IMG/VR virus record: IMGVR_UViG_3300017527_000118
Coordinates: 1 to 42,222 of that record
DNA: 42,222 nucleotides
Source: a virus
Strand: one strand, 5' to 3'
Positions 1,834 to 28,772 of this stretch are shown here, piece after piece (position 1 is the first letter of the stretch; each line of letters opens with the position of its first letter). Below the pieces are notes generated by a model. That model searched no databases. It saw only the letters and a program-made list of their open reading frames with translations, and was not told where the DNA came from. The position numbers and the translations under genes were made by a program.

Positions 1834-2059
1834 TGTCTACCTCCAGGTCAAACCACTCCCCTAGCCTGTAGCAGCAGTACGCCGCTGCAAGGTACAGAGA
1901 GCCCACGAGAACGCACCAGGTAGCTACACGTAGTGCACCTAGCCCAGAGAGCGAACCTCCCGCTAGAGCACACGAGAAGTGCCAGTACGCAGAAGGGACG
2001 AAGAGGGCCATGAGTAGCACCGGGAGCGTCAGCCATAGGCGCCAGGTGTAGGGGGTCAT
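1814..2059 (-). CDS. small two-span membrane protein
   Basis: An 81-residue protein with two hydrophobic stretches, about residues 9-30 (LTLPVLLMALFVPSAYW) and 42-64 (LRVATWCVLVGSLYLAAAYC), and an acidic tail. The start at 2059 overlaps the upstream stop as ATGA. The last 20 bases overlap the resolvase start. No family recognised. A superinfection or membrane-stress role is possible but not shown. Confidence 0.55.
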   Translation of the reverse strand: MTPYTWRLWLTLPVLLMALFVPSAYWHFSCALAGGSLSGLGALRVATWCVLVGSLYLAAAYCCYRLGEWFDLEVDNDLSRH

Positions 2060-2391
2060 TGGAATTCCTTTAGCAGTGAACCGGAACCGTAACCGTAACC
2101 GGAACCGGAACCGGAACCGTAACCGTCACCGTAACCGTAACCGTAACCGTCACCGTAACCGTAACCGTAACCGTCACCGTAACCGTCACGCGCTACTGCC
2201 CAAAGCGGCAGGTTGATGTCTGACTCAGCTCCAGCAATAAGGCTTGGCGCGTTGGCCTCAAGCCACACAACATCATCCTGGCGGAGTTCGGTCACATCCA
2301 TTCCTACACTGAAAACGTCAAGGCGATCACGGCACGCTCCTGCCTTGCGGGCTGCGTCGAGATGTCTCTGGGTGATCTTCAGCTTGCCCAT
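2056..2391 (-). CDS. protein with long Gly-X dipeptide repeat tail
   Basis: The 111-residue protein has a normal-looking N-terminal part, with MGKLKITQRHLDAARKAGAC and then WLEANAPSLI. Its tail of about 37 residues alternates Gly with Tyr, Asp or Ser. I chose the ATG at 2391 because it overlaps the stop of the upstream gene by 13 bases; the open frame upstream runs inside that gene. The tail is encoded by a 6-bp tandem repeat (2078-2189), so its length probably varies by slippage in steps of two residues. No function recognised. Confidence 0.6.
   Translation of the reverse strand: MGKLKITQRHLDAARKAGACRDRLDVFSVGMDVTELRQDDVVWLEANAPSLIAGAESDINLPLWAVARDGYGDGYGYGYGDGYGYGYGDGYGSGSGSGYGYGSGSLLKEFQ
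2078..2189 (-). repeat. hexanucleotide tandem repeat (GGTTAC-type, coding)
   Basis: About 18 to 19 units of six bases, reading GGTTAC, GGTGAC or GGTTCC on the coding strand. They encode Gly-Tyr, Gly-Asp and Gly-Ser. The unit length is a multiple of three, so changes in copy number keep the frame. The units are adjacent without spacers, so this is not a CRISPR array. Confidence 0.95.
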
Positions 2392-2681
2392 GGCTGCTTC
2401 TCCCAGGCCAGGACGGCCATTTCGGTGCAGTCCATCACGCAGGTGACACCGCGCACCTCGAACTTGGGGATGGACTTCGAGATGCGGCAATCCTCAGTAG
2501 GCCCTGTCGCCGCAAGGCCGAGGACACCCTGGACATCAAACGACCAGTACACCACCATCTGGCAGTCGGTGAGAACGAGGTCATCCTTGCCCTTGGTTGG
2601 GCCTGTCACCCAGCCGAAGAACACACCGCGCTTGTCTTTGTCGGTACACACCACTACGGGACGCTTCTTTGCTGTTGTCAT
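2379..2681 (-). CDS. conserved phage protein, DUF6948-like
   Basis: A 100-residue protein. KRPVVVCTDKDKRGVFFGWV, then LTDCQMVVYWS, GVLGLAATGPTEDCRIS and a final VTCVMDCTEMAVLAW form the conserved blocks of a small phage family I take to be DUF6948 (assignment from memory). That family has no known activity. It lies just after the helicase loader. The stop overlaps the repeat protein's start by 13 bases, consistent with translational coupling. Confidence 0.55.
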   Translation of the reverse strand: MTTAKKRPVVVCTDKDKRGVFFGWVTGPTKGKDDLVLTDCQMVVYWSFDVQGVLGLAATGPTEDCRISKSIPKFEVRGVTCVMDCTEMAVLAWEKQPWAS

Positions 2682-2684
2682 TTC

Positions 2685-3359
2685 TTACTCCTCCAGCTCA
2701 TGTTTGCCACGTTGATCGGGGATCGTCTCTGGGAACTCAATCCACATACCGCCACCACGGAGCCGGCTAAGGAACCGCTCGCCGTACCTCTTGCCGATCA
2801 CTCGCTGGCTGAGGTTGGTGGTGATGAGGGTTCCCGCTTGCTCACGGTTGCGTGCCTCGAGAACAGCGAACGCACGCTGTACGATCCAGTCCGGGACGGT
2901 CGCGCTATGCTCATCGGCCTCAGTGCCGAGGTCGTCGATGACCAGGAACCTGGCCCGCGTAGCGTCATGTATCACAACACTCTCGGTCCCACCCTCGTTG
3001 CCCCAAGTGTCCTTGATCTCCTGGAGAAAGCGCAGCCAACGAAGGTAGCGACAGGTGCTCACACCCATCCTGGGGACAATCCGAGCTAGGGTGGAGACGG
3101 CCAAGTGAGTCTTACCCCTTCCGGCAGGGCCAGAGAGAACGACGCACCAAACATCGAAGGAGCGATCCCACTCATTGACTGTCCAGTCGATTAGCTTGAT
3201 GAGGTCTGGAGTCATCCCCTTGACATCCTCATCCCAGTTACCCCAGCGACAACGCACGTCAGACGTTGGCACACCAACCATTGCCAGCTTCTCAGTGGTG
3301 GAGAGCTTGAGGTACTCGATGCCGTCGCGCTCAATGATGTTGTCAGGTAGAAGATCCAT
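2685..3359 (-). CDS. DnaC-like helicase loader ATPase
   Basis: A 224-residue AAA+ protein. Walker A is GPAGRGKT (residues 77-84), Walker B is FLVIDDLG (138-145) and sensor 1 is TLITTNLS, as in DnaC/IstB-type loaders. The start at 3359 has GGAG 7 bases upstream and overlaps the initiator stop by 17 bases; an earlier ATG at 3392 lies inside the initiator gene. It should deliver the host replicative helicase to the phage origin in the cytoplasm, working with the O-like protein encoded directly upstream, an arrangement like phage lambda O and P. No phage helicase is visible in the window. Confidence 0.85.
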   Translation of the reverse strand: MDLLPDNIIERDGIEYLKLSTTEKLAMVGVPTSDVRCRWGNWDEDVKGMTPDLIKLIDWTVNEWDRSFDVWCVVLSGPAGRGKTHLAVSTLARIVPRMGVSTCRYLRWLRFLQEIKDTWGNEGGTESVVIHDATRARFLVIDDLGTEADEHSATVPDWIVQRAFAVLEARNREQAGTLITTNLSQRVIGKRYGERFLSRLRGGGMWIEFPETIPDQRGKHELEE

Positions 3360-4119
3360 CAGCCCTCTCCTTCGCCCTACGCTGCCGCTCAATAACGTCG
3401 TCGATATTCATGAAGCCCTCGTCGCCCTCGACGTCGTACTCCTTGCGGAGTGGTTTGTCGTCTGGTGCGTTCTTGGTGCCTACCTCGTCGTTCCAGCCGT
3501 GGGCACGGAGCCAGCTAGCGGGGTATGGGATGAACTGCCCACCCTCGCGCTTCCACTGGTAGCTGGCAGCAAGGTTGGCCACCTTGAGGGTCAACTCGTC
3601 GAGTGGTGGTCTCTCCTTGGCCGTCTGCCCCCACGCTTTGAGGGCATCCCCCTTGCTGGCCTTCCGAGGGTACGCCTTCCAAAACTCTTCGAACTCAAGA
3701 GGGTACTCCCCATTTGCTAGCATGTTGCTAGCACTCTCTAGTGTGTCTCTACTCTCACTCTGCCTCTGATCTGTCTCTGTCTCTGGGCTAGCATGTTGCT
3801 TGCAAGTCGCTAGCGCTGTGCTAGCGCGTGATATAAACCCTTGGTTTTCAAGCTCTTCCAAGGCCCGCTCAACTTTTTGCTTTTTTGGAGCCCGAATTCT
3901 GAATGCTAGCATCTTGCTATCATCATAGACGAGTCCATCGTCCCGTTCGCTGGCGATTAGCCACACAAATATGAGGACCCTGACGGCAAAATCGGAGAGG
4001 GCCGCGAACTCCATATTGTCGAGCAGCTCCCTGTAGAGCTTGATCCAAGGTGGTCTCCGCTTCCCGTAGTGTTGGTAGCGATCCCAATTGACAACCTCGA
4101 TCATGCCATCGGGCGGCAT
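3343..4119 (-). CDS. O-like replication initiator
   Basis: A 258-residue protein in two parts. The N-terminal part (about 1-95) begins VNWDRYQHYGKRRPPWIKLY and contains a winged-helix-like segment ending in VERALEELENQGFISR, typical of phage replisome organizers. The C-terminal part has FEEFWKAYPRKASKGDALKAW and then FIPYPASWLRAHGW, seen in O/DnaD-related phage proteins that contact the loader. The linker (about 98-137) is low-complexity and is encoded by the DNA that carries the iterons. The start at 4119 has GGGGGAG upstream and overlaps the preceding stop (TGATG). It is expected to bind the iterons inside its own gene. Confidence 0.8.
   Translation of the reverse strand: MPPDGMIEVVNWDRYQHYGKRRPPWIKLYRELLDNMEFAALSDFAVRVLIFVWLIASERDDGLVYDDSKMLAFRIRAPKKQKVERALEELENQGFISRASTALATCKQHASPETETDQRQSESRDTLESASNMLANGEYPLEFEEFWKAYPRKASKGDALKAWGQTAKERPPLDELTLKVANLAASYQWKREGGQFIPYPASWLRAHGWNDEVGTKNAPDDKPLRKEYDVEGDEGFMNIDDVIERQRRAKERADGSST
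3714..3924. other. putative replication origin: 11-bp iterons inside the initiator gene
   Basis: Eight 11-base units with a GCTAGC-type core lie in three blocks: 3714-3735 (two units), 3785-3828 (four contiguous units) and 3903-3924 (two units). Six of the eight keep the core GCTAGC exactly. Units are contiguous at one helical turn, and 11 is not a multiple of 3, so the repeat is not a by-product of protein repeats. Between blocks lie a pyrimidine-rich tract (3736-3784) and an AT-richer stretch with T runs (3829-3902) that could unwind. The layout parallels the lambda origin inside gene O. Confidence 0.8.
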
Positions 4120-27995: not shown

Positions 27996-28772
27996 CTACA
28001 AATCCTGTATCTCTTCCCGAATGTCCACCATGTCCTCGAACCGAGGGTCGCCCTCGAACTCAGAAGGCTTGTGGAGGTACTCGGGAGCGCACTTGGGGCA
28101 GAGGACCGGCAACAGCATATTGAAGGAGTTGCCGGTATAGCTTGCCGCTGTCCCACTTGTGAATGGGAGATGATCCCAGTTTGGCTTGACGGCATCGTGA
28201 ACGCAGTGGTGGTCGATCCACCAGTCATCAGTGGCGTTGGTCGCGGTGATGTCAACATAGAAGTAGACGGCTGAGCTTGAGGGGGTCACCGCAGCGCTCA
28301 ATGAGGCGACTGGATACGTCACCCAGCACGCACGCATACCAGGGACCGTCCAGGTGCCCAGAGCCTCCTTAGAAACGCCGTCAGACGTGCATACGCCCAG
28401 TACGGCGCTGATCTCCTGGACAGTAGCGGCGTGGTAGGCCCCAACCCACGTCACAAAGAGAAGGTTGGTGTTCCCGCTCAGGTCGGTAGCAACCGTAGAG
28501 CGGTAAGTGCCAGAGGCCCCCGTCCACGTCTGGGAGCCCCTGGCTTCGGTCAGCGTAGTGCCATCAGTGACGTAGGGACGGAATTCGTCAGCGTAGACCC
28601 CCATTGAGACCTCGCCGGCATCCGCCGCGTCACACGTCCAGAAGGCACTGTTGTAGCTCGAGTAGAGCAGTTGGTTGACTCCAGACCGATACCCATACGG
28701 GCGCAGTTTCCTGACGAGAGTCTCTCGTGGGACCTCATCACCACACTCGAAACAGAGTTCGATCTGGGGCAT
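27996..28772 (-). CDS. virion-region protein with flanking Cys pairs
   Basis: A 258-residue protein. An N-terminal CFECGDEVPRETLVRK and a C-terminal VLCPKCAPEYLHKPSEFEGD give two CxxC pairs that could close one zinc site around a beta-rich middle (TWTGASGTYRSTVATDLSGN, then VYFYVDITATNATDDWWIDH). No family recognised. The middle may be a carbohydrate-binding-like sandwich. Position suggests a connector or decoration protein. Confidence 0.55.
   Translation of the reverse strand: MPQIELCFECGDEVPRETLVRKLRPYGYRSGVNQLLYSSYNSAFWTCDAADAGEVSMGVYADEFRPYVTDGTTLTEARGSQTWTGASGTYRSTVATDLSGNTNLLFVTWVGAYHAATVQEISAVLGVCTSDGVSKEALGTWTVPGMRACWVTYPVASLSAAVTPSSSAVYFYVDITATNATDDWWIDHHCVHDAVKPNWDHLPFTSGTAASYTGNSFNMLLPVLCPKCAPEYLHKPSEFEGDPRFEDMVDIREEIQDL

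Follow-up and report, generated by a model that had tools for sequence, protein, structure and literature searches.

The phage studied here probably starts its replication inside its own initiator gene: eight repeated units (iterons), together with the purine tract beside them, constitute its most likely replication origin, and we put the probability of this reading at about 0.87. The analysed stretch of DNA, referred to below as the window, is an entire IMG/VR virus record of 42,222 bases. Relatives sharing the same layout, which amount to hundreds of phages and prophages, very probably start DNA copying at the same place, as far as sequence comparison can tell. An origin is the best reading because the protein encoded around the units matches initiators and the neighbouring genes are helicase genes. 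A preliminary description of this DNA had proposed an iteron origin inside an initiator gene with a DnaC-like gene next to it, and the core of this proposal is supported (Table 1).

Table 1. Location of the iteron units, the purine tract and the genes of the putative origin region in the window.
Feature	Position	Strand	Details
Iteron block, first in coding order	3903-3924	minus	2 units, 11 bp apart: GCTAGC 3905-3910, GCTATC 3916-3921
Iteron block, second in coding order	3785-3828	minus	4 units, 11 bp apart: cores 3820, 3809, 3798 (GCTTGC), 3787
Purine tract	3746-3784	minus	AGAGACAGAGACAGATCAGAGGCAGAGTGAGAGTAGAGA on the coding strand; candidate unwinding or single-strand-binding element
Iteron block, third in coding order	3714-3735	minus	2 units, 11 bp apart: cores 3727, 3716
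Initiator gene	3343-4119	minus	258 aa; PHROG 270 replication initiation protein, 1.5e-24
Initiator domains (AlphaFold2)			N-terminal winged helix, residues 6-98; linker, about 103-135; C-terminal domain, 139-211
DnaC/IstB-like helicase-loader gene	2685-3392	minus	PHROG 50 DnaC-like loader, 2.4e-35; Pfam IstB_IS21, 1.2e-8

The loader gene is located directly downstream of the initiator gene on the same strand, and its likely ATG start is near 3359. The initiator protein matches replication-initiation PHROGs by sequence and phage replisome organizers by fold. Its comparison with viral folds gave 27 matches at E≤0.001, the top one being Gp04 of PhiPLPE (7e-10). No family match was found in Pfam or NCBIfam, and a search of PDB by sequence and fold returned nothing significant, with DnaD as the best weak match. 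The AlphaFold2 model has a mean pLDDT of 80 and a low-confidence linker; a winged-helix model built from a single sequence had low confidence (pLDDT 45) and was left out of the analysis. Megablast found no close relatives of the window phage, so conservation was measured across distant relatives only. A scan with its DnaC-like protein gave no matches, and a terminase scan gave distant matches only. Elsewhere in the window, AACCGT is repeated 18 times (91% match) at 2079-2186, within an ORF (2056-2490, minus strand) encoding a YGDGYGYGYG-type repeat protein. A tRNA-Val is predicted on the minus strand at 28154-28232, inside overlapping ORFs, and may be a false positive.

All eight 11-bp units with a GCTAGC-type core reported for the initiator gene were confirmed, in three blocks. 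Six of the cores are exact GCTAGC and the remaining two are GCTTGC and GCTATC. The units are 8-bp near-palindromes (TGCTAGCA) spaced 11 bp. The blocks had been described as phased. This holds within the blocks but not between them, as the core-to-core distances of 60 and 85 bp correspond to about 5.7 and 8.1 turns at 10.5 bp. The second block in coding order is located immediately before the purine tract, a gene position matched in most relatives, and the third block lies on the opposite side of the tract. The units had also been assigned to a low-complexity linker, which is correct for these two blocks according to the AlphaFold2 model, but the first block encodes residues about 66-72, within the predicted winged-helix domain (helix 68-74, confident).

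GCTAGC is the sole non-satellite hexamer reaching 6 copies per 211 bp in the whole 42-kb window. As an unbiased statistic we used the best of all hexamers, counting exact copies having a neighbour 11 bp away. Its value is 6 in the initiator gene, against a maximum of 4 in 1000 synonymous-codon shuffles, and 6 is reached at no other site of the window phage. The gene contains 7 exact copies of GCTAGC, compared with a maximum of 5 over 3000 synonymous shuffles. The near-match count (one mismatch allowed) of 8, against a shuffle mean of 3.3, is unconvincing alone, because the shuffles reach 10.

Relatives of the initiator N-terminal domain were found by alignment-based scans in at least 556 viral contigs and at least 50 genome contigs, and the motif NWxxFQHYKDRxPPWIKLY is common to distant phages. 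GCTAGC or GATATC units at 11-bp multiples are present inside the gene in 121 of 134 sampled relatives (GATATC in 74, GCTAGC in 47, neither in 13). TGCTAGCA units are found in the initiator genes of Cylindrospermopsis phage Cr-LKS3, Iodobacter phage PhiPLPE, Vibrio phage phiV208 and a Manatee Spring podovirus; in those of Xanthomonas phage PBR31 and Limnohabitans phage DC33, the core of the 11-bp units is GATATC. The largest arrays have up to 11 units, as in locus L020. The iteron sequence was thought to differ from that of lambda and to be a type of its own. It does differ, but it is not private to the window phage: the GCTAGC type occurs in phages and prophages from several bacterial phyla, with the GATATC type as its sister. 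Two of the 13 genes with neither core (L001 and L044) have two copies of a third repeat type, TAACGAAACCG, 11 bp apart and next to a GAGACA tract. The 11-bp iteron origin family, as defined in this analysis, combines a winged-helix domain with the NWxxFQH[Y/F]..R.PPWIKL motif, palindromic TGNTANCA units at 11 bp and a GA-rich tract, and the window phage has all of these. The next gene codes for a DnaC-like loader in the window phage, PhiPLPE, phiV208 and L120, for DnaB in Cr-LKS3 and L128, for a Toprim-DnaB primase-helicase in L114 and L118, for a DnaB_C protein in L012 and for an SF2 helicase in L110.

Two further arrangements were seen among the initiator genes. In L138 (about 500-700 of the locus) and L007, an HNH-endonuclease domain is located between the N- and C-terminal parts of the initiator, where the units usually lie; it may represent a homing endonuclease lodged at the origin. 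Arthrobacter phage LittleTokyo (L023, 1548-1596) has four copies of GAACCGTCC at 11, 11 and 13 bp in a more distant initiator gene, and the 11-bp rule may extend beyond the initiator family of the window phage.

Self-similarity was assessed in 81 dereplicated genes, chosen by protein only, in comparison with synonymous shuffles. At lag 11 it was 455 against 47 in the shuffles (z 39); z was 17 at lag 22 and 22-29 at lags 6, 12 and 18. A reverse search relied on DNA spacing alone. Three GCTWGC at 11 bp occur in at least 120 viral loci, and 82 of 120 among the matches listed fall in a gene with the initiator motif; for three GATATC at 11 bp this is 95 of 120 among the matches listed. At control spacings the proportion was 9 of 60 loci (10 bp) and 1 of 120 among the matches listed (12 bp). 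In 38 of the 120 GCTWGC loci among the matches listed (e.g., L196, L201, L237) the array lies outside a recognised initiator gene, and such arrays possibly mark divergent initiators. Some of these 38 loci have two arrays about 170-310 bp apart.

In an Oxalobacteraceae clade (L109-L134) the initiator gene is cut short behind the winged helix, at about 100 aa, and this clade accounts for 8 of the 13 genes without GCTAGC or GATATC inside the gene. In most of its members, GCTAGC units (predominantly 11 bp apart) and a CAGAAGAGAAGAG tract are located past the stop codon, where they encode something else or nothing; in L110, where the following ORF was traced, they lie within the first codons of the SF2-helicase ORF. 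As the units and tract persist beyond the stop codon of the shortened gene, the conserved element is, judging from these sequences, the DNA and not the encoded protein. The preliminary description had likewise claimed selection on the DNA itself and regarded the loss of units in relatives that keep the protein as a refutation. The opposite was observed: the 11-bp units are retained in relatives with a different encoded protein, also past the stop codon. L110, L112, L129 and L134 are prophage-like Oxalobacteraceae loci in which a shortened initiator is followed by iterons and a purine tract.

The stretch first described as T-rich is pyrimidine-rich on the plus strand, between the first two blocks as read on that strand, and is thus a GA-rich purine tract on the coding strand. 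It is not strongly AT-rich (local GC of 0.50 vs about 0.58), and across relatives its sequence is of the GAGACA type. An A/G tract of at least 36 nt adjoins the units in 69 of 86 dereplicated genes, compared to 32 of 1010 control windows. In the relatives, Glu is encoded by GAG in 307 of 341 tract codons vs 458 of 1000 outside the tract, and Thr by ACA in 197 of 202 vs 155 of 568. Since this choice of Glu and Thr codons departs from the rest of the gene, the ETETET linker encoded by the tract looks DNA-driven.

Could the repeats be a mere by-product of the protein sequence, with Ala/Ser/Leu-rich and ETETET linkers reusing a few codons? The linker is of low complexity, and the loosest near-match count is unexceptional against synonymous shuffles, but the 11-bp spacing is out of frame and some units encode a folded helix. 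The lag-11 excess over synonymous shuffles and the units and tract persisting outside the gene in Oxalobacteraceae contradict this explanation, which we find hardly credible. It is also very improbable that the palindromes act in mRNA as hairpins regulating translation or transcript stability: folding of the region is a little stronger than in shuffles (z -2.6), but palindromes give some folding by themselves, and both the strict helical spacing of 11 bp and the replacement of GCTAGC by GATATC as the core fit DNA binding and not RNA hairpins.

Somewhat more weight, while still improbable, can be given to the units being binding sites through which the initiator, or a different regulator, controls loader gene transcription, with no origin there. 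Iteron initiators often autoregulate, and the units are located upstream of a helicase or loader gene wherever the next gene was identified. However, transcription control explains neither the conserved purine tract beside the units, nor their position in the gene far from the start codon, nor arrays as large as that of L020. Moreover, it and an origin role are not mutually exclusive. A change of cumulative GC skew, expected in the preliminary description near 3.8 kb, was not seen there, which counts against the origin reading; GC skew is weakly informative in the window phage, since nearly all of its genes are on one strand. The lack of a strong AT bias in the purine tract, the 38 GCTWGC loci outside a recognised initiator gene and the restriction of the conservation data to distant relatives count against the origin reading as well.

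For an origin at this site, we infer protein binding to the units, opening at the tract and hand-over to the helicase. The winged-helix domain of the 258-aa protein would bind the near-palindromic TGCTAGCA cores. The 11-bp spacing is close to one helical turn, so the bound protomers would be found on one face of the DNA and would build a nucleoprotein complex resembling the O-some of lambda. Such a complex would open the adjoining purine tract, with the single strand held or exposed for helicase loading. The C-terminal part of the initiator would then hand over to the DnaC-like loader encoded next or recruit the helicase machinery.

That an initiator gene can contain the origin has been known since lambda, where iterons in the middle of gene O are followed by a tract that is A/G-rich on the coding strand and then by the loader gene P (PMC7466680). 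In lambda O, the A/G-rich stretch comes directly after the fourth iteron. The layout of iterons, A/G-rich tract and loader gene is common to lambda ori (also to the Stx phages P27 and 933W) and the window phage, with direct repeats inside the initiator coding sequence and the loader gene directly downstream. However, lambda has four annotated 18-bp iterons of a different sequence about 20-24 bp apart, in contrast to the 11-bp spacing of the window phage, and its tract is AT-rich, while that of the window phage is GAGACA-like with about 50% GC. The match of the window initiator to the O-like PHROG 345 is weak (E 0.0012), and homology to lambda O with 18-19-bp iterons was not found. The differences from lambda are the initiator family, which has no model in Pfam or NCBIfam, the palindromic units of 11 bp and the GAGACA tract. 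The best reading is that the window origin would work like lambda ori, with its own initiator family and iterons.

By sequence and fold, the window protein belongs with phage replisome organizers and DnaD-like and RepA-like initiators (PHROG 270, 26426, 186), but it is not covered by a Pfam or NCBIfam model and lacks a convincing counterpart in PDB. Iodobacter phage PhiPLPE (gp04) has GCTAGC units at 11 bp, just as the window phage. Iteron plasmid origins of the RepE, P1 RepA and TrfA type combine a winged-helix initiator, direct repeats and an adjacent opening element; unlike them, the window array is located inside a coding sequence and consists of 11-bp units. No relative was found among 72,556 plasmid records of PLSDB, which speaks against an iteron plasmid replicon. 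A search of the open full-text literature found no description of these iterons.

In TGNTANCA, positions 3 and 6 are the only ones that distinguish the GCTAGC and GATATC cores. The iteron type tracks the initiator protein across relatives, and on the tree the GATATC genes branch from within the GCTAGC type. Just one residue outside the iteron-coding positions separates the types perfectly, being Tyr18 (window numbering) in the GCTAGC type and Phe in the GATATC type. When only clearly typed genes are considered and the type is read from the block adjoining the tract, all 77 Phe genes of the protein-selected set have GATATC and no Tyr genes do; the pattern-selected set (84 Phe and 75 Tyr genes) has zero exceptions. 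Of the apparent exceptions, L028 and L227 were regex mis-reads, and L056, L061 and L105 have GATATC units by the tract and a GCTAGC-like block early in the gene. In the latter three genes, the GCTAGC-type and GATATC-type blocks are located at gene positions 114-147 and 264-286, and may represent a relict or a two-code origin. Residues 95-105 separate both types too but were set aside as candidates for specificity, since they are encoded by the iterons themselves. The Tyr/Phe residue may be a mere clade marker, because the tree needs only about one switch. We consider it possible, if rather doubtful, that these phages form a large undescribed origin family with two DNA codes, TGCTAGCA and TGATATCA, where Tyr18/Phe sets or helps to set the code.

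For uncultivated phages, the replication origin is hardly ever pinpointed. Palindromic cores spaced exactly 11 bp and adjoining a GAGACA tract in a gene with the PPWIKL motif provide a signature for a probable origin, and this signature marks such a probable origin in hundreds of phages and prophages from several phyla. The two iteron codes with their matching initiators are a natural pair for studying the evolution of initiator specificity, and the layout shows the extent to which a coding sequence bends to carry an origin.
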